The position numbers and the translations under genes are program-made. Below are positions 16,933 to 29,440 of a stretch of DNA of 64,000 nucleotides, in pieces (the first letter of the stretch is position 1; the number at the start of each line of letters is the position of its first letter). Below the pieces are notes generated by a model, which saw only the letters and a list, made by a program, of their open reading frames with translations, was not told where the DNA came from and made no database searches. The DNA is taken from assembly GCA_031761875.1 (NCBI GenBank), contig CP134492.1, positions 2,666,001 through 2,730,000 on the forward strand, in the 5' to 3' direction. This DNA comes from Bacillaceae bacterium IKA-2. GTDB taxonomy: Bacteria; Bacillota; Bacilli; Bacillales; Anaerobacillaceae.

Positions 16933-17271
16933 CTAGCTGTCTCTATATTTTTCTACAAGGACTGGCTGAAATTGCTTTCCTTCTAACGCTGCTTCTACTG
17001 TTTCCTGTAAAGAGGTCATTCTTGCAACAAGCGAATTCGGCTTTTTAAAAGGATCATCTTGACCGTAAGGAATAAAATAGATATTTTTCGTCGCCATCAA
17101 TTTCATCAAATTGATCCCATTCAAGCCTAAAGCGTCATTTGTTGAAATTCCTAGTACAACCGGCTTTGAATTTCGTAGTGTTGCTTTCGCTGCCATCAAC
17201 ACAGGTGAATCGGTAAGCGCATTTGCAAACTTACTCGTTGAATTTCCTGTTAACGGGGCAATGACCATGCA
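16933..17271 (-). CDS. spoVFB: Dipicolinate synthase subunit B, C-terminal segment of split spoVFB
   Basis: This segment encodes residues 87-198 of SpoVFB: CMVIAPLTGNSTSKFANALTDSP, then GISTNDALGLNGINLMKLM and FIPYGQDDPFKKPNS, ending at 16933. SpoVFB is the flavoprotein-like subunit that, with SpoVFA, makes dipicolinic acid in the mother cell. The segment has no start codon with a ribosome-binding site; the only early ATG is the internal Met-88 codon, and a stop lies a few codons upstream across the junction. It is therefore silent unless joined to 28263..28520. The joint codons would be GAT (Asp) and TGC (Cys), rebuilding a continuous 198-residue gene. It shows no internal decay. Confidence 0.93.
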   Translation of the reverse strand, partial: CMVIAPLTGNSTSKFANALTDSPVLMAAKATLRNSKPVVLGISTNDALGLNGINLMKLMATKNIYFIPYGQDDPFKKPNSLVARMTSLQETVEAALEGKQFQPVLVEKYRDS

Positions 17272-17274
17272 ATC
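17270..17274 (-). other. Left attachment core (GATTG)
   Basis: A pentamer shared with 28261-28265. Element-side sequence (GTGTG TAGT TCATAAAA...) mirrors the right element arm around the central TC of this core, as expected for half of attP. The chromosome side is spoVFB codon 87 onward. Confidence 0.75.
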
Positions 17275-17308
17275 GTGTGTAGTTCATAAAAGGCACCATA
17301 ATAAAAGG

Positions 17309-17345
17309 TGAAATTCATTCGGTTTACCGAACCGAATGAATTTCA
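17309..17345 (-). terminator. 16-bp hairpin just inside the left end of the element
   Basis: A perfect 16-bp inverted repeat with a 5-nt loop (TACCG) lies 35 bp inside the element. On the minus strand it is followed by CACCTTTTATT. It would terminate transcripts of the GDYXXLXY gene before they enter the spoVFB 3' part, asd and dapG. An accessory recombination site is an alternative. Confidence 0.62.
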
Positions 17346-17426
17346 TTCAAGTTAATTCTTTTAAATAAATTAGTAAACCTAGTTCCTTCATATTTTAATT
17401 GATCCGCTACCTTTACGGCTGTTTTA

Positions 17427-19592
17427 TTATTTATTTAAAAGTTTTGTTAATAGGGCATTCCCATCTTTTGCTACTTTTACAATTGCATATTTTGCATTTT
17501 CTTCGACTTCAAGTCCTGTGCCTTCAGGTACAAAGTAGCTTTCAATGCCAAAGTGGACTCGGTTATAGCCATTGTATCTTCCTGTTATGATAACGTCCTC
17601 AGCTTCTGGTTGGTAGTCCTTGTTCCATTTCTTGTGGTGGTGATAATACCCTGCATACTGATAGAGATTTGTTCCATCTTTTCGGAGAACCAGCTTAACA
17701 CGTTCATTATCGGTGCCATTTGGTATTTCGAGGTTACCAACTGTATAAGCTAATATCACATAATCTCCTTGAATAAGTGACCGTGGATCGATTGGTTGTA
17801 ACTCCAAGATGACAGTTTCGCCTTGTTGTAGAATGATTTCACTTTTAATGACTTGAACACTTAAAATTGAAAGTTGTATAAGAATAATTAAGAAAATTGG
17901 TTTCCATGAAAAAATGGTAGCTGCTGACTTTGTATCATAGGTATTTTTTTGCTCGATATAGCTTGCAATCAGTAAGAAAATAATTCCAAGGACAATCATT
18001 AATATCGATTTGTGGAGCAAATCCCAGGCCAAGTCATAATATTTAAAGCCAAGGAAAACAAACCATAAAGCCAAGCTAAGCTTCTGTTCGAAACGTTTTT
18101 CGTGTTTGTGTGAAGCATATAATAAGAACGTAACAAAACCAAAAAATCCGAAGTTATAGATTATATTTAAGGTTGCGATTTCTTTGATGAAAGTTAATCC
18201 AAAAAGTGATAGTAGTGCCAATGTTAAGCCATTTTTGCGGGTCGTTTCCTGAACAGGTGCTAGGTAATACACCAAAAGGTTTACAATAAACAAACCAAGT
18301 AGAAAATATTCAAATTCAAAATAAGCTTCGACGAACATTTTACCCGTAATCATACCCATAAATAATGAATAAAATAGCATGCTTACGCCGCGATTCGGAG
18401 AAATTTTTAATAAAAATAAATAAAAACTTAAAAGTAAATAAAAGAACAGATCATTGGTAAAAAAAGCAGTCACGGTCGCTAGTATTAGGCCCATCGTCAA
18501 AAACGTATATTTCACCGTCGGAATATCCTTTTTTATCATAAAAAACAATCCGATACAGATGATCCCTACTAGATAAATGAAGGACTCGTTAAATGTATCA
18601 AATGTCAAACTGACAAAAGCAATAATCGCTCCAATTCCCATCCAAGAGGCTACAACAGTAAAGAAAATGATGATTATTTTTTTCAAAAAGATGATCTTTT
18701 TGTATTGCTTTTCGTGTTGATCTCTCGTTTTTAAAGATTTTGCTAGCCATTTCAAAACATAGATGCTTCCGATAACTAATCCGATCGTTGAACTCATACT
18801 TATGATCACGTAACCAGCTTCTCCAAAATTCGTAAGAAAAGAAAAGAATTTTTGAAGAAATAAAAGACTAGAAAACAAAATACTAAATGTGATAATGTTT
18901 TTTTGTAACTTTATCTTCCCAAAATAATAAATACTCCCAATCAATAGTCCAATATAGACAATCAGTATGACATAGAATATATCAAGGTTTGCTAAAAACA
19001 GTTTTTCTTGACCAAACATTGAAATGCCTACCAAAACCACATGAGCAACAAATAACGAAAGATTTTGCAAAATAGCGGAACGAACAATCTCAAAATAGGT
19101 AATCGTAAAAATAAATAGATTGATAGCCGCAATCGCTAAAAACATGACCATTAATTTGCTATCTGTGTGGACAACTTGTATCGAACTTGGGTTCATGTAA
19201 AACCAAAACGCTAAGTGAAACAACACAAATGAATTCACATAAAAAGGAGAATATCGAGTAAAAATACTAAATAAAATCATCGGAACTAACCAAATCAAAA
19301 AAAGCAAATAGCTGTCTGCATGTGAGTTGTAAATTTGTCCAAGCAATCCAACAGAAACTCCAAATATGATACTTCCTGAAACGAGCAACCACTGGTTTAA
19401 AAACGGTTGGTTTGACAAAAATCTGCGTACAAAATAGGAAGAACTGTAAAATAAAAGCATCAGTAAAATACTTAACGCAATTTTTGTAAAACGATCGAAA
19501 CCTTGCCAATTTGATGCAAAAAAATAAATAATGCCAGCTAAAATCAATGATAACCCCAGCAGATAACTTAGCTTCACTGAATAGTGTTTCAT
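17427..19592 (-). CDS. Multi-pass membrane protein, DUF2157/DUF4401/GDYXXLXY type
   Basis: A 721-residue integral membrane protein with about 18 hydrophobic helices. The N-terminus (FFASNWQGFDRFTKIALSIL) resembles DUF2157. The C-terminal extramembrane part carries the name-giving motif of the GDYXXLXY family (RSLIQGDYVILAY, about residue 625), followed by a beta-rich tail. Biochemical function is unknown; the fused arrangement is seen in scattered bacteria. GGGAGTGAT precedes the ATG. It is the leftmost gene of the spoVFB element, ending 82 bp from a strong hairpin, and is cargo rather than a recombination gene. Confidence 0.8.
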   Translation of the reverse strand: MKHYSVKLSYLLGLSLILAGIIYFFASNWQGFDRFTKIALSILLMLLFYSSSYFVRRFLSNQPFLNQWLLVSGSIIFGVSVGLLGQIYNSHADSYLLFLIWLVPMILFSIFTRYSPFYVNSFVLFHLAFWFYMNPSSIQVVHTDSKLMVMFLAIAAINLFIFTITYFEIVRSAILQNLSLFVAHVVLVGISMFGQEKLFLANLDIFYVILIVYIGLLIGSIYYFGKIKLQKNIITFSILFSSLLFLQKFFSFLTNFGEAGYVIISMSSTIGLVIGSIYVLKWLAKSLKTRDQHEKQYKKIIFLKKIIIIFFTVVASWMGIGAIIAFVSLTFDTFNESFIYLVGIICIGLFFMIKKDIPTVKYTFLTMGLILATVTAFFTNDLFFYLLLSFYLFLLKISPNRGVSMLFYSLFMGMITGKMFVEAYFEFEYFLLGLFIVNLLVYYLAPVQETTRKNGLTLALLSLFGLTFIKEIATLNIIYNFGFFGFVTFLLYASHKHEKRFEQKLSLALWFVFLGFKYYDLAWDLLHKSILMIVLGIIFLLIASYIEQKNTYDTKSAATIFSWKPIFLIILIQLSILSVQVIKSEIILQQGETVILELQPIDPRSLIQGDYVILAYTVGNLEIPNGTDNERVKLVLRKDGTNLYQYAGYYHHHKKWNKDYQPEAEDVIITGRYNGYNRVHFGIESYFVPEGTGLEVEENAKYAIVKVAKDGNALLTKLLNK

Positions 19593-19667
19593 ATCATCAC
19601 TCCCATGTACTTACTTTACATATTGAAAGAAAAAAACATTTGATTGAGCAATAGATGAGTTAAAAAG

Positions 19668-19724
19668 AATAACAGTTCCCTAACGAACACGATGTTTGTC
19701 AAGGTAGTGACAACTCCTGTTATT
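19668..19724. other. Nested inverted repeats in a 270-bp gap
   Basis: AATAACAG pairs with CTGTTATT as an outer stem. Inside are GTTC/GAAC and TTGTCA/TGACAA hairpins, giving a three-way-junction-like arrangement. The gap 19593-19863 holds no gene. It may be the transcription end of the SDR gene or a structured leader of the membrane protein gene. Confidence 0.4.
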
Positions 19725-19863
19725 GAGATCAAGCACCAGTTAACCTAAGAAGGATATTTACGTATGGACGTATCGTTCAAAGGTGGAATTTTAAATCGAA
19801 AGGCACGATCTTGCCATAATCGTTATGATATTTAAACAAACTCTGTTCTTCAATTAACTTTCA

Positions 19864-20553
19864 TTAAGGCCTAATAATAACATCAATTGCTGCGGCGTCT
19901 TTACCTGCTTTTATCACAGATAAAACTTGCTCGGCTACAGTTTCCACGATTAAGCCTGCCGTCTTTATTGAGGCCGAAACACCGCCAAAATCGGTTTGGA
20001 CAAGACCTGGAGATACCGATGTTACACGAATACCGTATTTCTTTCCTTCTTTATTCATTGTATGGGACAAACCTAAAAGTCCCCATTTACTGGCGCAATA
20101 AGCAGACGCCTTTTCGGTCGTATTGTACGCCAGGTCTGAAGCAATATTGACAATTTGTCCCCCTTGGCCAACCATCATAATTTTATAAACGGCTTGACTA
20201 CATAAGAAAGCACCCTTTAAATTTGTATTTAATTGACTATCCCAATCTTCCTCGGTCATTTCTTCTAATGGCTTCCACACACCTACACCAGCATTATTTA
20301 CTAACGTGTCAATTCGCCCATACTTTTTAAAGATAGATTCAATAACCGTTGAAACTTGTTCACTCAAAGTAATATCACATTGATAGGTATCTAAGTCATC
20401 AATCCCAACCATAGTTTCCTGAAGTCTAGCAAGCGATTCTTTATTTTTCGCTAATACGATTGTTTTTGCTCCCTCTTTTAATAGAAGCTTAACAATACCC
20501 TCACCAATTCCCCTAGAACCACCTGTTACAATGACAACTTGATTTTTCAGCAT
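19864..20553 (-). CDS. SDR family oxidoreductase
   Basis: A 229-residue classical short-chain dehydrogenase. It has TGGSRGIG near the N-terminus (residues 11-18), NNAGVGV, the catalytic Ser in NIASDLAYN, and AYCASKWG with Tyr-x3-Lys. The C-terminus (AAAIDVIIRP) is like enzymes of the YdfG/3-ketoacyl reductase type. The substrate is not predictable. ATG at 20553 follows GGAGTGGGG. It is cargo of the spoVFB element with its own ribosome-binding site. Confidence 0.85.
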   Translation of the reverse strand: MLKNQVVIVTGGSRGIGEGIVKLLLKEGAKTIVLAKNKESLARLQETMVGIDDLDTYQCDITLSEQVSTVIESIFKKYGRIDTLVNNAGVGVWKPLEEMTEEDWDSQLNTNLKGAFLCSQAVYKIMMVGQGGQIVNIASDLAYNTTEKASAYCASKWGLLGLSHTMNKEGKKYGIRVTSVSPGLVQTDFGGVSASIKTAGLIVETVAEQVLSVIKAGKDAAAIDVIIRP

Positions 20554-20614
20554 AATTCCCCACTCCTTTTTCTACTTTTATTATTTCTTTAAACCAAAAA
20601 CCTCTTCTCCCGAA

Positions 20615-20716
20615 CTAGTAAGGGCCATAAGCAATAATACCAATTTGCTCCCGGCAGCTTGTATCTTCCCAAACTTCAACTATTGCATTTCGTGACATGT
20701 TAGATTGTATAACCAT
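20615..20716 (-). CDS. Possible 33-residue small protein
   Basis: ATG at 20716 follows GGGGGTGTCAAA and opens a 33-codon frame (MVIQSNMSRNAIVEVWEDTS..., ending IIAYGPY). The ribosome-binding site is good and the composition looks protein-like rather than random. I do not recognise it. It could be a free small protein, perhaps an accessory factor of the element, or a remnant of a longer gene. Confidence 0.35.
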   Translation of the reverse strand: MVIQSNMSRNAIVEVWEDTSCREQIGIIAYGPY

Positions 20717-20817
20717 TTTGACACCCCCAAATCTGCAGAACAGTTCTGAAATAGCTTCCCAATAGAAAAGGCGTTCCTGCTTGTTACAGAAATGATTCCT
20801 CTGGTTTAATAGCGTAT

Positions 20818-21255
20818 TTACTTTAAAGTTGTTTTAAATACATAACTTACTTTGTCATAATTCATCCTATCTTCATAAAAATGATGTGCCTCTGTACGCT
20901 GTAACCCTGAAGAAAGAGCAACACTTTCATAATTATTTTCTCTTGCCCATTCGTGAATATAGGAAAGTAGCTTCTCCCCGTATCCTTTTGAACGTTTATT
21001 AGTATCTGTTACTAAATCACAAACCCAAACAAATCTACCATAATAGAGCGTTATCATTGGCTTAAAACCTGAAACTGCAACAATTTCATTTTTATCAAGT
21101 AAAGCAAATAATTTATATCTATCTTTTTCTTGCGCTTCAATAACTAGTTCAAGATATATACTTTCATCAAGGTGTGATCGCAACTGCTTCATCACTGGAA
21201 AAGCTTCTAAAATTTCTTTTCGTGATTGAAGTTCCTTAATTGTTAAATCATCCAT
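20818..21255 (-). CDS. GNAT family N-acetyltransferase
   Basis: A 145-residue single-domain GNAT. The acetyl-CoA-binding motif A is visible as [21 protein letters not shown] (about residues 82-102), preceded by the beta-strand [10 protein letters not shown] and followed by [17 protein letters not shown]. The substrate is unknown. It has AAGGGGA before the ATG and is a separate unit within the spoVFB element. Confidence 0.85.
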
Positions 21256-21386
21256 AAGAATTTTCCCCTTTTATCATTATTCTGATTCGTTAGTGAAGGT
21301 CACTTTAAATAAATTAGATTAACTCCAAAAAGATGAACAACTACTATAAAACAAAGGAGACAAACCTTCCATTAGTATTTAAATCA

Positions 21387-21423
21387 ATAAACACTAGGAA
21401 TTTAAACTTTTCCTAGTGTTTAT
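21387..21423 (-). terminator. Hairpin between purC-like gene and GNAT gene
   Basis: A 14-bp perfect stem (ATAAACACTAGGAA/TTCCTAGTGTTTAT) with a 9-nt loop lies about 140 bp after the purC stop. The T-run is weak. Confidence 0.5.
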
Positions 21424-21562
21424 CACTTAATAAATCCCATCTATTTTCCCTAGCTTCATAGCTAAGCCCATTTTTTCAGCAATATTGTTTTTGGGCTGCT
21501 GCTTCAACTAAGCAAACCTTTATTTGAAGAATATATTGAAACACATCAGATTTGAAGATAGA

Positions 21563-22249
21563 TTATTTTTCTAACATTAATTTTTCTAACAGTAATGGCT
21601 CAATGTATTCTCCTTCTTTGTAGGCTCTCATATTTCCACCTGAGATTTCATCGATAAGGACAATTTCTTTACTGTCACCAACAGAGCCAAATTCAAACTT
21701 AATATCATACAATTCAATGCCTTTTTTTGCTAATTCTTCCTTGACGACACTTCCAATTTTCTTTGTTAGGTCTTTTAGCACCTTGTATTCATCTTTTGAA
21801 AGAAGTCCTAACATATCAAGAGCATCTTCAGAAATTGGTGGGTCCTGACGATCGTCGTCTTTTAACGTCACTTCTACAAATGCATCTAATTCCTGTCCTT
21901 CCACAGCATACATCCCGTAACGACGTAAGAAACTTCCTACTGCTCTATAACGACATATTACTTCAAGCCCTTTACCAAACACCTCTGCTGGCTTTACTGT
22001 CATTGTTCCTTCATCTATATTCGCATCTATGTAGTGTGTCGGAATTTCTTTTGCCTTTAAAGCTTCAAAAAAGAATGCTGTTAATCGAAGTCCGGCCTTC
22101 CCAGCTCCTTCAATCGAAAGTCCAACTGTGTTGGCCCCAGGGTCAAATACCCCATTTGCTCCCGTCACATCATCTTTAAATTTTAATAAGTAATTTCCGT
22201 CCTCTAAAGCATAAACATCCTTCGTCTTACCTGTATACCTAAGCTTCAT
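21563..22249 (-). CDS. purC: PurC-like phosphoribosylaminoimidazole-succinocarboxamide synthase
   Basis: A 228-residue SAICAR synthetase. Typical motifs are YTGKTKDVY at the N-terminus (the ATP loop), CRYRAVGSFLRRYG and DIKFEFGSVGD followed by IVLIDEISGGNMR. The usual Bacillus operon PurC reads DEISPDTCR in that last motif, so this is a divergent type. It probably makes SAICAR from CAIR and aspartate. It lies alone in the spoVFB element, away from any purine operon, and is likely a second copy. ATG 22249 is preferred over TTG 22252. Confidence 0.85.
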   Translation of the reverse strand: MKLRYTGKTKDVYALEDGNYLLKFKDDVTGANGVFDPGANTVGLSIEGAGKAGLRLTAFFFEALKAKEIPTHYIDANIDEGTMTVKPAEVFGKGLEVICRYRAVGSFLRRYGMYAVEGQELDAFVEVTLKDDDRQDPPISEDALDMLGLLSKDEYKVLKDLTKKIGSVVKEELAKKGIELYDIKFEFGSVGDSKEIVLIDEISGGNMRAYKEGEYIEPLLLEKLMLEK

Positions 22250-22495
22250 CAAAATTCATCCTTTCTCATTTTAAACTATTTTTCAAAAAATTATTAGGGA
22301 CTAAATCGTCAAATAAATTTGTGTACACCTCTGTTAGAGGAATATGAATGCCTCTCACATCATTTATATGTATTACAGTTATAATATTATTGTATCATTT
22401 TTGATTAAAAAAGTTTGATTATTTTAACTATTCTTATTGGAATTATATAAACATGTAATGACATACTTTTTCACTAATCGTCTTATTTTTAAACT
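22250..22495. other. Gap upstream of the purC-like gene
   Basis: About 245 bp without a gene. It contains a short inverted repeat (CCTCT GTT AGAGG) and AT-rich sequence with poor promoter matches (TACAAT without a good -35). No riboswitch was recognised. Confidence 0.4.
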
Positions 22496-22530
22496 ACAAA
22501 ACCCATTCTCATCCAAGGAATGGGTTTTGT
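22496..22530 (-). terminator. Terminator overlapping the tgl stop
   Basis: A 13-bp perfect stem (ACAAAACCCATTC/GAATGGGTTTTGT) with a 9-nt loop has its 3' arm just beyond the tgl stop codon. The last tgl codons form the 5' arm. Confidence 0.62.
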
Positions 22531-23381
22531 AAAGTTGTCTGAGTGTACAGCTTATTTAAATAAAATAGATATCGATCACTTGGAATCGAACTTTCTTTAT
22601 GGAGTATTACGACATGTTGAATTTTATAAGCAACATAACTTCGTGGCATCATCGAAAATTTCGCCAAATTTTTAACAGCCGGCCTTGTTACTAAATTTGT
22701 CAGATAGGCTGATTGATTACTCCACGGTTTTCTAGTATTATTAAGTGCCTCAATTATTTGTTCTGCAGTCTTTATTCCTAATCCATGTCCAAAATACGTA
22801 CCATCTCCGAGCACAACGGCATTTACTCCTTTCCACCAAGGGGTTTGCAGATGAAAGTCCGGGTTGTTAAAATACAAAACGTCGCCAGGTAAAAAATGGT
22901 CCGTATAAATTGAGTTTACTCCAAGATCAGGATCAGAGTGCCAGCTGTATAAATAAATGTTTTGAAATAATAGATTAAACGCATGTTCGCCAATACTGTT
23001 TAGCACTGCATGGTAATAAATAATGATCATTGCCGTTGCACATTCAAACGCATATAGTGAACTGTTCCTGTAAATGTCGCGAATCGCATCAGAGGGTTTT
23101 ACACCAGGCCGCAACTGAAATCCACCGGTATACATCAGATCCCAGTAGTGAGGGTTACAACGGGACGTTTCAAATGGTTCAAATTGTACATTACTTTGAT
23201 TCATAGCTCTAGCACTTACCGTGATCTGTTTTCGTAAGTTAATTTCAAATGATAATTCGTCTATCAATTGATACGAATAAGCGATCGGACCTTCATTCAT
23301 TCGTTGAAAGATCATCTTTTCAACACTTCCAGATGACCACATGTCACCTTGTTCAAAGGGCATCTCTGATAGTTGAATCAT
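22509..23381 (-). CDS. tgl: Protein-glutamine gamma-glutamyltransferase (spore coat transglutaminase)
   Basis: A 290-residue Tgl homologue. B. subtilis Tgl (245 residues) cross-links spore coat proteins through epsilon-(gamma-glutamyl)-lysine bonds late in sporulation. The catalytic Cys is kept in YAFECATAMIIIYYHA, and the catalytic His in YFGHGLGI. The Glu that I recall as the third residue (Glu187, in GENV) aligns here with Val in WKGVNAVVLG; the codon is GTA where GAA would give Glu, so activity is doubtful. The C-terminus is about 45 residues longer than in B. subtilis, as in cereus-group enzymes. AGAGG precedes the ATG. A sporulation gene as cargo of a sporulation-gene element is notable. 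Confidence 0.88.
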   Translation of the reverse strand: MIQLSEMPFEQGDMWSSGSVEKMIFQRMNEGPIAYSYQLIDELSFEINLRKQITVSARAMNQSNVQFEPFETSRCNPHYWDLMYTGGFQLRPGVKPSDAIRDIYRNSSLYAFECATAMIIIYYHAVLNSIGEHAFNLLFQNIYLYSWHSDPDLGVNSIYTDHFLPGDVLYFNNPDFHLQTPWWKGVNAVVLGDGTYFGHGLGIKTAEQIIEALNNTRKPWSNQSAYLTNLVTRPAVKNLAKFSMMPRSYVAYKIQHVVILHKESSIPSDRYLFYLNKLYTQTTLQNPFLG

Positions 23382-23856
23382 CCTATACCTCTTTTCAACT
23401 TTAGTAGTAATTTTTTATGATTACCAAGCACATAAAGATCGTTATAATTGGATAACTTTCGCAAATAACACAACCAACTGAACTTTTTCAGGCGAATTAT
23501 AGGAAGTGTTAAGAGCCTCATTCAAGGCGAACCGATTACTTCTGTTTAGTGAGATAATATGTTCTTATCTGAGGAATATTCCATTATTTAATTTTTTTTC
23601 TGAAGGGAAGATGAAAGTGATAACTTCTCCTCATTTGAAATTGAAATAAGTGCAGTTGAAATAACATTTTTACATTGCTTGACAAAGGATTAGACATCGA
23701 TAACTGAAGGGTATTAATGAGGGTAGCAATTGGGAGGTTAAACTGTTCTTTGTTACTAAAATAGAAAATGTATAGGATATGTAATCAAATTTATCCAATA
23801 AAAAGGAACATCATAAACAAAAATGGGTTTTAACCATTAACTTTTTTTCATTATAA
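23382..23856. other. 475-bp gap upstream of tgl
   Basis: No gene was found. The part near tgl should hold its promoter, but no convincing sigma-E or sigma-K match is visible; the best -10-like sequence is CATAAAAAA. Near 23821-23836 a short AATGG/CCATT hairpin with a T-tract could end the upstream transcript. Confidence 0.4.
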
Positions 23857-24531
23857 CTAATCTTCTTCAAAACAATTCGCTTGATGCCCGCAGCTAAAAC
23901 AATTGGAATTAACCATTCTCTCTACCTTATAATCATTCGGATTGAACGTATACTTTCTGCCATTATCTAATGAGATAACTTCGATACGTTCTGGTATTTT
24001 CCCAAATGCCATTTGAGAAAAGTATGTTACTGACTTCCAATACGATTCAAGCATTTTCTCATCTGCCTCAACTAAATATTTTTTTATGATAAAAGAGGTA
24101 GGTGAGCATGAATCAACATCAATGGTTAAATTAAATAAGCGATTCATCTGACATATTGACTTTTTCTCGAACAAAAAAAGTGGTGTCTTTGAATCTCTTT
24201 CTAACAACAAATGTGTCATCAAATAATCTGTCATCTTTGCAAGTACAGTATAATAATGGACCTTAGAGTAAAACAATTCAATATCTATTTGCTCAAAATG
24301 ATTGTTAATCAATCTAAGTATTTCTAATGGGATACGCTTATCATAACTAAGTTGAAAAAAATCGGAAGCAATATCATTAACAACTACTTGTGTTAATGAG
24401 AGCCAACCAAATTCAATTTCTTCTGAAATAAACTGATTATTCCGATTAAAGTAGTGCGGACAAGATATATAATTACTTATTTTCTTTAAATTTAATTTCT
24501 CTAACGGTGCATGAAATTTAAAGTGGGGCAA
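23857..24531 (-). CDS. Cas4/AddB-like Fe-S protein with degenerate nuclease core
   Basis: A 224-residue protein of unknown function. It has the four-Cys pattern of Cas4/AddB-type iron-sulfur nucleases: one Cys in ISNYISCPHYF (about residue 24) and C-x2-C-x5-C at the C-terminus (CFSCGHQANC). The stretch YWKSVTYFSQMAFG...ERIEVISL matches the helix-strand segment after the active site of PD-(D/E)XK family 1. The GxxD and (D/E)xK residues themselves are not clear (FIIKKY), so nuclease activity is doubtful. It starts at TTG 24531, 18 bp after the DUF2325 gene, and shares its Fur-box region. Confidence 0.55.
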   Translation of the reverse strand: MPHFKFHAPLEKLNLKKISNYISCPHYFNRNNQFISEEIEFGWLSLTQVVVNDIASDFFQLSYDKRIPLEILRLINNHFEQIDIELFYSKVHYYTVLAKMTDYLMTHLLLERDSKTPLFLFEKKSICQMNRLFNLTIDVDSCSPTSFIIKKYLVEADEKMLESYWKSVTYFSQMAFGKIPERIEVISLDNGRKYTFNPNDYKVERMVNSNCFSCGHQANCFEED

Positions 24532-24549
24532 TTTCCCTCTTCCTTTCTA

Positions 24550-24882
24550 CTAGCAATTTTGGCTATACATTTTACAGGTACCTTTAGCGATACACTGCTG
24601 CTCTTCACATTTTCCAATTGCTTGATAAATGGAACACCATGAACGTTTTGCATAGCAAATCGGAACCGACTGCTCATTTGCTTTCTTTTTTAATACTGTT
24701 GACAAATTATGGTTAACATAATCTGTTAACACTAGGATTAAATCAATGTGATTCGGAATTTCTTTTTTGACCTGTTGAACCTTCCTTCCACTAATATGGA
24801 TGATTTCTTTAAACCCAATGCCCTCTAGCTTACTAGGAATTTTCCCTAAATGATCTGCACCAACAATTAATAATGACGACAT
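24550..24882 (-). CDS. DUF2325 domain Cys-rich protein
   Basis: A 110-residue DUF2325 protein: a Rossmann-like N-terminus (MSSLLIVGADHLGKIPSKL) and a Cys-rich tail (CEEQQC-x4-GTC-x5-C) that could bind metal or an Fe-S cluster. Function unknown. The start at 24882 follows a perfect AAGGAGG; the open frame further upstream runs through two Fur boxes and is not coding. It is first in a two-gene unit with the Cas4-like gene. Iron repression is predicted from the operators. Confidence 0.82.
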   Translation of the reverse strand: MSSLLIVGADHLGKIPSKLEGIGFKEIIHISGRKVQQVKKEIPNHIDLILVLTDYVNHNLSTVLKKKANEQSVPICYAKRSWCSIYQAIGKCEEQQCIAKGTCKMYSQNC

Positions 24883-24916
24883 ATTCTTCCTCCTTTTCAA
24901 TATAAAACGACTCAAA

Positions 24917-24931
24917 TGAAAATCATTATCA
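24917..24931. promoter_or_regulatory. Fur box 1
   Basis: TGAAAATCATTATCA matches the 7-1-7 Fur consensus TGATAAT-n-ATTATCA at 13 of 14 positions. It lies 35 bp before the DUF2325 start codon. Confidence 0.82.
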
Positions 24932-24950
24932 CTCATAGATTCATTATAAT

Positions 24951-24965
24951 TGAAAATGATTATCA
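24951..24965. promoter_or_regulatory. Fur box 2
   Basis: TGAAAATGATTATCA matches TGATAAT-n-ATTATCA at 13 of 14 positions. Its centre is 34 bp from that of box 1, so two dimers could bind on a similar helix face. Confidence 0.82.
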
Positions 24966-25073
24966 ATGTCAATATTAGTTTTTACTATTTTGCATATAAT
25001 AAAACTTCCCTGAAATAATTTTCTCGCAGCTTCAGACGGCTAACGCAAAAAGACTATGAATGGGTAGATTAGA

Positions 25074-26345
25074 TTAGGCGATATTAGGTTTACGTTCTCT
25101 ATCCTGACGTTTTTCCTTAATAAGAATTACTCCAATCAAACCAATCATCGAGAAGATAACTGGAATGATGAAACCATAGAAGTATCCATCACCAAAACTA
25201 CCTGATGCAGACTCAAAATGATCCAATATATATCCAAAAATAATAGGTAGCAATACGGCACTTAGGAATCCACCTGTATTTGCAAATCCAGAGACAATAC
25301 CAGATTCTATAATAGGAAACGATTGACGTACGATAGCAAAAGTAAGGGCACTTGCCCCGAATCCAAAACCAATGATAAAGAAAAGGATAATTAGCAAAGA
25401 AAATGGCGGATTTCCATTAAATAAAAGAAATGAAGTCCAACTCATTAAAATAGTGATATGAACAACAACATAAGGACGCTTGATTGTTTCTAACCGACTT
25501 GAAATCCAACTAGTTAATGGCGCTCCAATAAGTGCCCCGATAAGACCAATCATTATGAGCTGACTCGCACCTGAACGTGTCATTTCATATACATTCATCC
25601 CATAGGGCACTGCCCACGAACTGATAAATCCTAGATACCCGCCGACAAGCCCAAAGTGACAAAAGAATAAAGCCCACGCTTGCTGGTTTGAAAATATTCT
25701 CCGCAGTAAAACCAATACTTTTTCCTGTTGTATTTTGTTTTCTACAACCACAGGTTCGCTCGGAAAGAGTTGTTTTGGTTTTTTGAAGAGTACATAGTAA
25801 AGGAGAATACCACATAAACATAATAGTAGACCTGCTAAAAAAAATACTACTCTCCAACCTAGTAAGTTAATCCATGCGGAAAAAGGGACTGTCGCCAAAA
25901 GAAAACCAAGGCTTCCTGTCATTCCCGCCAACCCAATTAATCGTACAAATTCTTTTTCATTAAACCATTGACTCAAAATTAGGACCATATTGACCCAGAT
26001 CGTCGCATCCCCCGTCCCCGTAAGTATTCTGGAAAAAAAAAGGACGAATTCATGCGTACCAAGGCTATAAATGATTGTACCTAAACCTGTAAGTATTGCA
26101 CCAATAATTAGAAAAAAATTGGGACCATAACGATCAGCCAAAATACCCATAGGAATTTGTAGCCCAGCGTATACAAAAAATTGTATACTTGTCAGTAACC
26201 CAATCGTTGATGCTGTTACATTGAAATCCGTCATCAATTGATCTGTAATCAATCCAGGAGCCGTTCTTTGGCTCGCCATTAATAAATAAGTAAACATGAC
26301 AGAAGCAAATACTACCCATCTAAATCTGCTATTTTGTTTTTCCAA
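25074..26345 (-). CDS. MFS transporter
   Basis: A 423-residue 12-helix major facilitator. The first-loop signature is present as GILADRYGPNF (about residues 67-77), and the helix-5-type GMTGSLGFLLAT is visible. The basic C-terminal tail (KEKRQDRERK) is cytoplasmic. The substrate is unknown. The start is TTG at 26345, with a moderate AGGGG site. It lies between the Fur-controlled pair and the recombinase in the element; 100 bp separates it from the Fur boxes, so it is not obviously part of that unit. Confidence 0.85.
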   Translation of the reverse strand: MEKQNSRFRWVVFASVMFTYLLMASQRTAPGLITDQLMTDFNVTASTIGLLTSIQFFVYAGLQIPMGILADRYGPNFFLIIGAILTGLGTIIYSLGTHEFVLFFSRILTGTGDATIWVNMVLILSQWFNEKEFVRLIGLAGMTGSLGFLLATVPFSAWINLLGWRVVFFLAGLLLCLCGILLYYVLFKKPKQLFPSEPVVVENKIQQEKVLVLLRRIFSNQQAWALFFCHFGLVGGYLGFISSWAVPYGMNVYEMTRSGASQLIMIGLIGALIGAPLTSWISSRLETIKRPYVVVHITILMSWTSFLLFNGNPPFSLLIILFFIIGFGFGASALTFAIVRQSFPIIESGIVSGFANTGGFLSAVLLPIIFGYILDHFESASGSFGDGYFYGFIIPVIFSMIGLIGVILIKEKRQDRERKPNIA

Positions 26346-26557
26346 TGATCTCTACCCCTGTTAGTTTTTACTTTATTTATATGAATCAACGGCATGATGA
26401 TAACCAATATTTTATTGTTCTACAAATGAAACTTTTATTTGAAGCAGCCTATCTACGAATTAAATGAACATCAACCTCCTCGATATATTTCTTCTAGGTG
26501 CTCATTTCCTAGTAATAAACATTCGTTGGTTCAAGGTTATCGTTGTTAACCACGCCT

Positions 26558-28075
26558 TTACACAAAATGAATTTTTACCCTCGGTTTGGTCTCTCCCCCG
26601 CGATTATTAAACAACTCCATTTTTTTGATAAAAACTTTTAATCGACTGTTTAATTGCTTTTGACTTAAAGTTTGATAGTCATCTAAAAATATAGTTAATT
26701 CCGCTAAAACTTCTTTTTTTTCTTCGCTACCTTTCTTTACAACGATTTGTTCAACAAACTTTCTTTCTTCGTTTAGGCTCTTTTTTTGTTCGAAAAAATT
26801 TTTACGTTTTAGTTTGTATTCTTCCACATTGATAATTGCCTCTTCAAAGGCAATATCAATTTGTTGGATTGCTTTATCGATCTTTTTTAACAAACTTTCG
26901 AGCGTTACATATTTTAGCTTTTGATCTTTTTGCACATCACTTTCTTGAATTTCTAACTTTAGAATTTCCTCTATTAACGTTTCTTCGTAAACTCGTAATT
27001 CGCCCATGATCGCGTTGATTACTGTATAATATGAAATACTACCATTTTTACAAATCTCACCGGTTGGATATTTTCGATGACAGCCTCTAATCACTAAATT
27101 CGTTTTTCTATCCTTTCTTTTCATAACAGACAGTGAATATCCACAATATCCGCATTTAACTAACCCAGTAAGTCCGAATGTACTGGCTCTAATTCTCATT
27201 GGCTCTTTCGACCTTCGATTTAACTCATCATTTGCTTGTTCCCAAATCTCTTCACTTACGATTGCCCAAAAAGCATCTTTCACAATGACCCAATTATTTG
27301 TTGGGTGTATTTCTTTTTTCTTTCCATTCCACCTGATTCTATGCCTTACTAGATAGCCTTTATAGGTTTCATTTCGAATTATTCGACGAATCGCGACTTC
27401 TGAAAAAGCATGCTTATTTTTTGTCTTGCATCCTAAGCGATTTAATTCATTGGCGATCCAAGTCGATCCTTTTTTCTCGTTCGTCCAGCTAAAAATCATT
27501 CGTACTATCATCGCTTGTTCTTCAATAATAACTAACTTTTTACTTTCTTTATCTACTTGATAACCAAACGGTGCCACACCATTATTCCACTCGCCCTTTT
27601 GGGCACCCGCACGTTTGCCTCTCATCAATCTTTTTCGTATTTGCTTATATTCAAAGCTTGATAGAACGTCCATAAAATCACTGACAAGGCTATCATTATC
27701 TACATTTAAATCGATCACTTGCAAGTCTGCTGTAATAATTAACACATCATTTTCAGCAAGTATTGCCTTTATGATGGCGGAGTCTTTGACACTTCTTGAC
27801 AAACGATCTACATCAATCACTAAAACAGCATCATAACGAGCTGTTTTCATTTGTTTAAGCATATTTGTAAGCTCAATTCTACTATCCATATCAATCGAAC
27901 TGGCGACTTCTTCATAAATGTCATAGTTCCAATTTTGCTGATCGGCTATTTCAGTTAATATTCTGCGATGATTGGCTAGTGTTGCTTCTGTTTCAAGCCC
28001 TTCATCTTGCCTTGATTTACGAAGATAAATCGCTATTTGTTTGACACGCTCTAATTTGTTAGTAAACCTCAACAT
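26558..28075 (-). CDS. Large serine recombinase of the spoVFB element
   Basis: A 505-residue large serine recombinase. The resolvase domain has the nucleophile Ser21 in IYLRKSRQDEG and the DRLSR motif (about residue 95). The recombinase domain follows (GVAPFGYQVD, IIRNETYKGYLV), then a zinc ribbon (GLVKCGYCGYSLSV with later Cys pairs) and a coiled-coil region rich in Lys and Glu (about 375-465). It resembles SpoIVCA, which excises skin from sigK. The frame is intact. Its start is 186 bp inside the right core, with AGAGGTGAT before the ATG contributed by a repeated sequence. I see no separate directionality factor. It is predicted to cut spoVFB at the GATTG cores. Confidence 0.92.
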   Translation of the reverse strand: MLRFTNKLERVKQIAIYLRKSRQDEGLETEATLANHRRILTEIADQQNWNYDIYEEVASSIDMDSRIELTNMLKQMKTARYDAVLVIDVDRLSRSVKDSAIIKAILAENDVLIITADLQVIDLNVDNDSLVSDFMDVLSSFEYKQIRKRLMRGKRAGAQKGEWNNGVAPFGYQVDKESKKLVIIEEQAMIVRMIFSWTNEKKGSTWIANELNRLGCKTKNKHAFSEVAIRRIIRNETYKGYLVRHRIRWNGKKKEIHPTNNWVIVKDAFWAIVSEEIWEQANDELNRRSKEPMRIRASTFGLTGLVKCGYCGYSLSVMKRKDRKTNLVIRGCHRKYPTGEICKNGSISYYTVINAIMGELRVYEETLIEEILKLEIQESDVQKDQKLKYVTLESLLKKIDKAIQQIDIAFEEAIINVEEYKLKRKNFFEQKKSLNEERKFVEQIVVKKGSEEKKEVLAELTIFLDDYQTLSQKQLNSRLKVFIKKMELFNNRGGETKPRVKIHFV

Positions 28076-28080
28076 TCGCG

Positions 28081-28109
28081 ATCACCTCTGGTGTCTGACA
28101 CCATGTGAA
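28081..28109. repeat. 29-bp direct repeat, copy 1
   Basis: Identical to 28166-28194. It contains the palindrome GGTGTC-T-GACACC. Read on the minus strand the palindrome is followed at once by AGAGGTGAT, which serves as the recombinase ribosome-binding site. Confidence 0.85.
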
Positions 28110-28165
28110 TTCCTCCTAAAAACATTGGTATAGCAATCTTTAGATTTCACAAACCTTGTGTAATA

Positions 28166-28194
28166 ATCACCTCTGGTGTCTGACACCATGTGAA
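28166..28194. repeat. 29-bp direct repeat, copy 2
   Basis: Identical to copy 1, with starts 85 bp apart. It lies in the predicted recombinase mRNA leader, between the sigma-E-like promoter and the start codon. Confidence 0.85.
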
Positions 28195-28232
28195 GTTTTC
28201 ACATTATTAATCAACTTAACTCTAATACTAAG

Positions 28233-28261
28233 AATCTATGCGGTGCATTTGTCGACTATTC
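28233..28261 (-). promoter_or_regulatory. Sigma-E-like promoter of the recombinase
   Basis: GAATAGT (28255-28261) matches the sigma-E -35 (KMATATT) at 6 of 7 positions. After a 14-bp spacer, CATAGATT (28233-28240) matches the -10 (CATACAnT) at 7 of 8. The -35 uses the last base of the attachment core. The start codon is about 150 nt downstream. Sigma-E control would limit excision to the mother cell before sigma-K acts on spoVFA. Confidence 0.55.
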
Positions 28262-28265
28262 AATC
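28261..28265 (-). other. Right attachment core (GATTG)
   Basis: Second copy of the pentamer. It joins spoVFB codon 86 (GAT, Asp) to the element, where the next codon becomes TGA and truncates the protein. Confidence 0.75.
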
Positions 28266-28520
28266 AAGTGGTGTCTTTGGTCCAAATGGTTCTGCTTTGA
28301 CGATGGAATCAACAATTTCCTCATCTGTGATTGCTTTTATTTGAGCAAGCCATTCTTCACTAGCACCAAATTTTGTTTCTGTTGTACTCATTGTATGTGT
28401 AACAAATGGTGTCACCTTAGCGCCGGCGGCAACCAATTTTTTCATTTCAGGAATAACGGCACTATACGTACAATGAGAGCCTGTTAAGCCAAAACCAATA
28501 TGCAAACCTGTTAATTTCAT
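28263..28520 (-). CDS. spoVFB: Dipicolinate synthase subunit B, N-terminal segment of split spoVFB
   Basis: This segment encodes residues 1-86: MKLTGLHIGFGLTGSHCTY (the flavoprotein-type nucleotide loop), then VTPFVTHTM and IVKAEPFGPKTPLD. In the integrated state the next triplet is TGA at 28260-28262, so an 86-residue truncated product would be made. It lies 44 bp after spoVFA with its own ribosome-binding site, as in Bacillus. Joined to 16933..17271 it gives 198 residues, close to the 200 of B. subtilis. There is no other lesion, which argues for a gene kept under selection. Confidence 0.93.
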
Positions 28521-28564: not shown

Positions 28565-29440
28565 TTATTTTCCTACTAGCAATTTGGAAAGAACATTGGC
28601 AATAATTCGTCCAGCTGTTTTCGGGGCGACAATACCTGGTAACCCCGGAGCTAGCATTGCCTTAATCCCTCTCTTTTCGGCATAACGAAAATCTGTACCA
28701 CCTGGCTTTGACGCTAAGTCAATAATGAGCGTACGAGTCGGCATTTTTGATAAAATATTTGCAGTCAAAACTTGAGCGGGAATGGTATTCACGCATACAT
28801 CTATATCATCAACTTCATTAGCTAACTTTGCCAATTCAATCGGCTGTAAACCCATTTCATAAATTCTTGCTAAATGAGAACTTTCAATGACTGCTACTTT
28901 TACGTTAGCTCCTAATGCATGCAATGCCCTGGCCACTGTTATTCCAACTCTTCCGAATCCCAGCACAACGACCTTTGAGTCATGGATCGTTATATCTGTA
29001 TTTTGGATCATCATCATTAAGGTTCCTTCCATCGTTGGAATCGAGTTATAAATAGCGACGTCATCACGCTCAAAAAGTTCAACTAGCTTGCGGTCTGCTT
29101 CTTGAACTATTTTCTTTAAATATTGATTACTAATTCCTGAGTAAATTGTACATTGTTTTTCTGTTGCTTTTATATGTTCTCCTTTTAAAACAATTTTTTC
29201 ATTAGAAAAAATTGTTTCCACTTCGCCATCAGCACTGGTACCACTAACTGGTAAAATTAAAGCTTTAACTTGACTGAAATCAATGTGCTCAAGTTGAACT
29301 TTACTCGCACCTACAAAACCTTCATCTAATTGATCAAATCCAATAAGTGAAATTTTCGCATCAAGTTCAATTAGCTTTCGAATCACTTCTAACTGTCTTG
29401 CGTCTCCACCAATAATTGCAATATGTTGTCCTGTTAACAT
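28565..29440 (-). CDS. spoVFA: Dipicolinate synthase subunit A
   Basis: A 291-residue dehydrogenase-like subunit that, with SpoVFB, oxidises the DapA product to dipicolinic acid in the mother cell. DPA with calcium fills the spore core and gives heat resistance. An N-terminal Rossmann-like part (HIAIIGGDARQLEVIRKL) precedes a second NAD-binding motif VVLGFGRVGITVARAL (about residues 150-165). Other conserved parts are INTIPAQVLTA and DLASKPGGTDF. GGGGAGGAAT precedes the ATG. It is first in the operon, under a sigma-K-like promoter. Confidence 0.95.
   Translation of the reverse strand: MLTGQHIAIIGGDARQLEVIRKLIELDAKISLIGFDQLDEGFVGASKVQLEHIDFSQVKALILPVSGTSADGEVETIFSNEKIVLKGEHIKATEKQCTIYSGISNQYLKKIVQEADRKLVELFERDDVAIYNSIPTMEGTLMMMIQNTDITIHDSKVVVLGFGRVGITVARALHALGANVKVAVIESSHLARIYEMGLQPIELAKLANEVDDIDVCVNTIPAQVLTANILSKMPTRTLIIDLASKPGGTDFRYAEKRGIKAMLAPGLPGIVAPKTAGRIIANVLSKLLVGK

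Follow-up and report, generated by a model that had tools for sequence, protein, structure and literature searches.

The window analysed here, a stretch of 64,000 nt from Bacillaceae bacterium IKA-2 (CP134492.1), contains a spoVFB gene (dipicolinate synthase subunit B) that is interrupted at the codon PLD|C by an intervening element of 10,991 bp (17272..28262, no strand assigned, G+C 34.4%); all coordinates below are positions in this window. The 5' half of spoVFB (28263..28520, minus strand) comprises 86 codons and lies directly downstream of spoVFA (28565..29440). Its open reading frame (ORF; 28260..28520, minus strand) starts MKLTGLHIGFGLTGSHC and ends FGPKTPLD, with an in-frame TGA stop that is created by the junction and stands right at it. 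The 3' half (16933..17271, minus strand) begins CMVIAPL, and the ORF read there (16933..17268, minus strand) starts MVIAPLTGNSTSKFAN. In NCBIfam the 5' half is identified by TIGR02852 (6e-30) as dipicolinate synthase subunit B, and positions 79-187 of this profile are matched by the 3' half. A GATTG pentamer is present at both junctions on the minus strand (28261..28265 at the 5' junction and 17270..17274 at the 3' junction), the two copies being 10,991 bp apart, and at the joint the halves read TPLD / CMVIAPL. All six other genomes examined from the same genus carry an uninterrupted spoVFB that reads TPLDCM(V/I)IAPL at this site. The statement in the preliminary description that spoVFB is split by a precisely removable element is thus borne out by the open halves, by their joint and by the six relatives. 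That description had also named a second complete spoVFB as a finding that would speak against it. A TIGR02852 search of the whole genome, a single contig of 4.42 Mb, returned the two halves only, and a search with the Flavoprotein family found three places, namely two other genes and the 3' half of spoVFB.

Beside the 5' half lies the single recombinase gene of the element (26558..28075, minus strand), which encodes a protein of 505 aa with Resolvase, Recombinase and Zn-ribbon domains, in agreement with the intact serine recombinase reported earlier at one end of the element. Judged by the presence of all three domains, it is a large serine integrase of the SprA/YokA type. The nearest solved structure by sequence is the SPbeta integrase (PDB 9dxh), with which residues 11-485 align (E 5e-32); YLRKSRQD stands opposite YLRRSRQD, and we take the aligned serine to be the catalytic one. 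Searches of 706 phage and 250 plasmid records gave no relative of the recombinase at 60% identity or above; the closest in the phage records, at 33-34% identity over 70%, are those of the SPbeta and phi3T phages. A scan of genome contigs gave two distant relatives (26-27%), and a scan of viral contigs gave none. At E ≤ 1e-60, relatives were found in 7 of 299 genomes of the order, its own genome included. Upstream of the recombinase gene there is a weak sigma-E-like promoter candidate, GAATAGT-N14-CATAGATT (28233..28261, minus strand); a similar site occurs at the same place in the related element described next. Because such sites are common in the window, we count this suggestive promoter as a lead only, and we give no weight to a tighter pattern that was fitted once both sites were known. 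A palindromic repeat with the core TGGTGTCTGACACCA also occurs twice upstream of the recombinase gene, at 28089 and 28174, and the stretch that holds it matches places in two further genomes (G003 and G005).

In a genome of another family (G066), spoVFB is split at the same codon by an element of 21,273 bp, measured between its GA copies. There too a recombinase gene directly follows the 5' half of spoVFB, the 3' half lies ∼21.3 kb further on, and both halves are open; no spoVFB match above the TIGR02852 family cut-off was found in this genome. The G066 recombinase is 64.6% identical to that of the window over 505 residues and is the only close one among the seven. Since a related recombinase accompanies insertion at the same codon in G066, a chance origin of the shared five-base core in the window is untenable. 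The G066 junctions, TTTAGAAAGCATAG on the 5' side and ACACGATTGTATGG on the 3' side, have two dinucleotides in common, GA and, four bases apart, AT, both of which are also present in the window. Exchange at AT would keep the in-frame TGA in the window, and GA is therefore the sole dinucleotide that fits both elements. We thus place the probable crossover at GA within GATTG (28265-28264 and 17274-17273). The shared pentamer at which the halves had been said to end is present at both junctions, but as a statement of the exact crossover the earlier reading needs correction, because on this comparison the pentamer only bounds it.

The element-side attachment (att) arms differ in their conservation between the two elements. 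At the 3' junction, 18 of the 23 bases of the arm (17275..17297, minus strand) are identical in G066, and 0 of 200,000 random pairs were as good (1 of 200,000 in a second test). The arm at the 5' junction (28242..28263, minus strand) is weakly conserved (12 of 22). When we compared the DNA of the two elements as a whole, strong matches were limited to the recombinase gene and to a stretch of 41 bp (E 3e-5) close to the right end, with the remaining matches at E 0.2 or worse. In G066 this 41-bp stretch is the 3' end of an open retropepsin-like gene, and the corresponding stretch of the window (17352..17392, minus strand, 83% identical) is probably a remnant of the 3' end of such a gene. We read this as two elements whose ends are of common descent and whose cargo has been replaced.

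Across 397 genomes of the order, TIGR02852 gave a match in 388, above cut-off in 379, and spoVFB is split by insertion in at least 11. Besides the window and G066, these are nine genomes of a third lineage, the genus g23, which is represented by 11 genomes and has an intact spoVFB in the other two. A sample of 398 genomes of the class, which overlaps that of the order, gave a match in 303 (261 above cut-off), and inspection of six genomes in it confirmed no additional case of a split by insertion. The split counts for the order and the class are lower bounds: close inspection in the order covered G066 and 13 plus 11 chosen genomes, and best matches of nearly full length were mostly left uninspected. 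Other apparent breaks in spoVFB were set aside, as they were frame breaks without an insert (G038, G564), two stops in one place (G186) or genes that run to a contig end (G473, G621).

The nine g23 genomes (G028, G295, G356, G182, G104, G336, G230, G315 and G252; loci L085-L092, L094 and L095) provide the strongest evidence in hand that a split spoVFB is in use. Here the insertion lies ∼50 codons downstream of the window's site, at NGTNLM|RLMST, with the core AATTTAATG (one side in G295 reads ATTTTAATG) and with facing arms such as TGACTTAGATGGTAATACC and GGTATTATCCTCTAAGTCA, which vary slightly between genomes. The element could be measured in eight of the nine genomes, the halves in G252 lying on two contigs, and is 2,795-3,042 bp in seven and 9,227 bp in G295. 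The recombinase of G028 is 31.5% identical to that of the window over 330 residues. Distances between the g23 recombinases follow those between the spoVFA genes with r = 0.99 (nine genomes, 36 pairs; 0 of 5,000 permutations), and with r = 0.975 when G295 is removed (0 of 5,000 permutations). The ratio of nonsynonymous to synonymous differences (pN/pS) between split genes is 0.014 for the 5' half, 0.072 for the 3' half, 0.072 for spoVFA and 0.166 for the recombinase (28 pairs from eight genomes, G252 being omitted for its two contigs). Because the g23 element has been passed down together with its host genome and both halves have remained under constraint, we infer that the interrupted spoVFB is used, and hence that the element is excised. 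This comparison with other species suggests that inserts in spoVFB are taken out when its function is required and can persist for a very long time.

Two further reading frames recur in the g23 elements. A frame of 61-65 aa, divergent from the recombinase gene, is open in all nine, with an ATG start in eight (ACG in G356), and an ORF of 178-182 aa lies near the other end, again in all nine. Just upstream of the smaller frame, seven of the nine genomes have CATACAAT, presumably a sigma-E-type −10; a scan upstream of this frame for a sigma-E-like site with an acceptable −35 found only that of G295. As a guess, the small frame is a candidate for a recombination directionality factor (RDF). Its predicted structure has three strands and a helix and is too weak for comparison (mean predicted local distance difference test score, pLDDT, 68.5; predicted template modelling score, pTM, 0.40). 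The 178-aa protein has no relative in viral contigs, phages, plasmids, Pfam or PHROGs. The longer element of G295 (L086 5187-9459, reverse complement) has surface-protein-like cargo, which we take to resemble WxL and DUF916. The G252 assembly (L094/L095) is interrupted at the att core of its spoVFB element, which could result if DNA with and without the insert was mixed.

In the lineage of the window, pN/pS measured against the six intact relatives is 0.175 for the 5' half, 0.089 for the 3' half and 0.162 for spoVFA, compared to 0.086, 0.071 and 0.132, respectively, between the intact relatives themselves (15 pairs). By these ratios both halves of the window's spoVFB are under purifying selection, the 3' half as in the intact relatives and the 5' half evolving about twice as fast. 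A recent or less efficient split state would also give a faster 5' half.

The cargo follows the recombinase gene on the minus strand in the order: a major facilitator superfamily (MFS) transporter (25074..26345; matched at 84-86% identity in four genomes of the same genus); a DUF2325 protein (24550..24972); a protein of 224 aa that matched no family (23857..24531); Tgl, the spore-coat protein-glutamine gamma-glutamyltransferase (22509..23381); a PurC-like SAICAR synthetase (21563..22252), which scores below the NCBIfam purC cut-off; a GNAT acetyltransferase (20818..21255); a short-chain dehydrogenase (SDR; 19864..20553); and a DUF2157 / GDYXXLXY membrane protein of 721 aa (17427..19592). We scanned eight of the nine element proteins against PHROGs, Tgl being left out and seen in the family searches instead. 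The recombinase matched integrase (phrog_95) and DNA invertase families, the FabG-like dehydrogenase, the acetyltransferase and PurC matched metabolic or general families, the MFS transporter matched a family of unknown function and three proteins had no match. Phage structural, packaging, lysis and replication families were absent among the eight, and no transfer, replication or packaging genes were recognised among the element proteins in the Pfam, NCBIfam and PHROGs scans. The earlier characterisation of the element as free of phage genes therefore stands, in the sense that these three databases recognise no phage structural genes in it. A prophage remnant is likewise unsupported by the PHROGs scan, and composition does not support a recent foreign island (G+C 34.4% in the element versus 33-38% in 2-kb windows).

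The tgl gene in the element is the sole copy found in the genome. Five of the six same-genus relatives have a full-length tgl, one of these (G001) having two broken tgl matches as well, and the sixth, whose assembly is 62% complete, is without it. In the tgl loci of the five relatives (3.7 kb each), a small hydrophobic ORF adjoins tgl, before or after it, and no recombinase of the window type is present. The PurC of the window is 82% identical to one from another family, and its Tgl is 52-58% identical to the seven compared; for these and for the MFS transporter, the comparison was limited to loci already extracted for other analyses.

We compared the element with intervening elements of other sporulating bacteria as excerpts of the cited papers present them. 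The target gene is that of vfbin, the spoVFB-intervening element of Bacillus weihenstephanensis KBAB4 (PMC4191935, PMC10747680, PMC6957869, PMC5595907), and it is by target that we liken the two, vfbin being represented here by descriptions; phage-related genes are ascribed to vfbin, whereas none was recognised in the window element. According to the excerpt of PMC5595907, gin, the gerE-intervening element of Bacillus cereus ATCC10987, has 28.6 kb, three recombinases (girA, girB, girC) and a 9-bp core; its integrase alone integrates, and a small RDF of 42 aa with no conserved motif, GirX, switches it to excision, a switch also stated for SPbeta and the skin element of C. difficile (PMC6957869 among the sources). 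Like gin, the window element is a phage-gene-free island in a mother-cell sporulation gene, with a serine recombinase and a short shared core, but it has 11 kb, one recombinase, another target and cargo, and no recognised RDF. The skin (sigK) and SPbeta (spsM) elements of Bacillus subtilis also combine a large serine recombinase with precise excision that restores the gene; unlike the window element, skin is a defective prophage and SPbeta an active one, and they interrupt other genes. In yin, which interrupts yabG in Clostridium botulinum V73, the 5' end of the split gene is followed immediately by the recombinase ORF, as it is here, but yin is described as prophage-like, with a 14-bp repeat and another target gene (PMC10747680, in excerpt). 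The sporulation-specific partner is reported to be the recombinase in skin, vfbin and gin, and the RDF in SPbeta and C. difficile skin (PMC5595907, in excerpt), and sprB, the RDF gene of SPbeta, to have a perfect −10 and an imperfect −35 of sigma-E type (PMC4191935, in excerpt). The hallmarks of such elements that we find in the window are cleanly split halves with a short core, an intact recombinase and the lack of a second gene copy. In its target the element is thus like vfbin and in its lack of phage genes like gin, with neither membership complete. We found no description of a phage-free spoVFB element, or of the g23 type, in the open-licence literature; the original vfbin paper and subscription literature were outside this scope.

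We consider it very probable that the window holds a phage-free sporulation gene-intervening element, excised from spoVFB in the mother cell by its own serine recombinase. On this reading, an element free of phage genes, mobile now or in the past, would have inserted at an attB inside spoVFB. The serine recombinase encoded beside the 5' junction would then recombine the two att sites, probably at GA, so that an 11-kb circle is released and spoVFB is made whole, with a presumed RDF turning it toward excision. As in skin, vfbin, gin and SPbeta, by analogy, excision would take place in the sporulating mother cell, which requires spoVFB for the synthesis of dipicolinic acid (DPA), and the element would be inherited because the forespore retains the inserted copy. 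The suggestion of developmental excision made in the preliminary description gains indirect support from the intact recombinase, from G066, from purifying selection on the halves and from the vertically inherited split in g23.

Several observations weigh against this reading. The conservation of the 5' att arm is matched by 1,512 of 200,000 random pairs, and the inverted symmetry of attP is not significant (12/24, with 6% of random positions as good; 12/25 and 9% in a second test). The 5' half has a pN/pS of 0.175 versus 0.086 between intact relatives, whereas spoVFA shifts merely from 0.132 to 0.162, and all of these ratios are rough because synonymous differences are near saturation. Sigma-E-like sites with three or fewer mismatches number 66 on both strands of the 64 kb. 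No RDF was recognised in the window element: homology with the G066 element showed strong matches in just the recombinase gene and the 41-bp stretch, and a search for sigma-type −10 boxes beside small ORFs gave nothing convincing. For the window element, moreover, excision, its timing, the cell type and the directionality factor are what we infer.

The lack of an RDF candidate would also fit a dead insertion, in which the RDF has been lost and spoVFB is a recent knock-out that has yet to decay, so that spores of the strain would be DPA-poor or the strain would not sporulate. The somewhat faster 5' half and the presence of the split in just one of the seven genomes examined from the genus point the same way. 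However, neither half has a frameshift or stop, the recombinase is complete and the same-site relative in another family also has open halves; a missing RDF is in any case weak evidence because known RDFs are small and have no common motif, as with GirX. We regard a dead insertion as unlikely. An ordinary integrative element, excised upon transfer or stress with only incidental repair of spoVFB, is a poorer candidate still and seems very improbable to us. The recombinase does belong to a phage integrase family (phrog_95), and we recognised no strong sporulation promoter on its gene, but we recognised no transfer, replication or packaging genes either, and g23 shows selection on a split spoVFB. 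In addition, with no second spoVFB, this host would depend on excision to make DPA. That the break is an assembly artefact or chimera is hardly credible, given a genome in a single contig, cargo reading frames that are open, and a same-site split with a homologous recombinase in the separate assembly of G066.

Looking beyond the window, we lean toward the view that spoVFB is a recurrent home of small, non-phage excisable elements. Two related integrase modules, each with cargo of its own, would have settled at one codon in different families, the cargo of one including the only tgl of its host. A distantly related element, with a length of 2.8-3.0 kb in seven genomes out of the eight measured, would have been inherited vertically through nine g23 species as a domesticated developmental DNA switch. 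Known programmed excision repairs in sporulating bacteria are few and mostly involve prophages or prophage-like elements, and the window adds a phage-free case in spoVFB. Integrase-att modules have been proposed to move between elements (PMC6957869, in excerpt), and the same-site relative with other cargo offers a natural test of that proposal. In g23, a small, vertically inherited element in a gene under selection makes the choice between parasite and domesticated switch directly testable.

Serine recombinases also lie beside broken or overlapped genes at other loci. At about 9.7-11.8 kb of three loci (L054, L055 and L056, in G185, G116 and G246), related recombinases (33-36%) lie beside a gene that stops at its Walker A motif. 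We take this gene to be comGA-like, and a competence gene may be interrupted likewise in these three genomes. Related recombinases lie beside pieces of one gene type, presumably yyaL-like, at two other loci: an N-terminal piece ending SIGYSTCH at L057 (10.8-12.7 kb, G103), and the remainder at L058 (9.8-13.5 kb, G251). In the genome of the window itself, another serine recombinase (L013, G000 285322-289404) overlaps the 3' end of a gene that we take to be rlmH-like, a known type of integration site.

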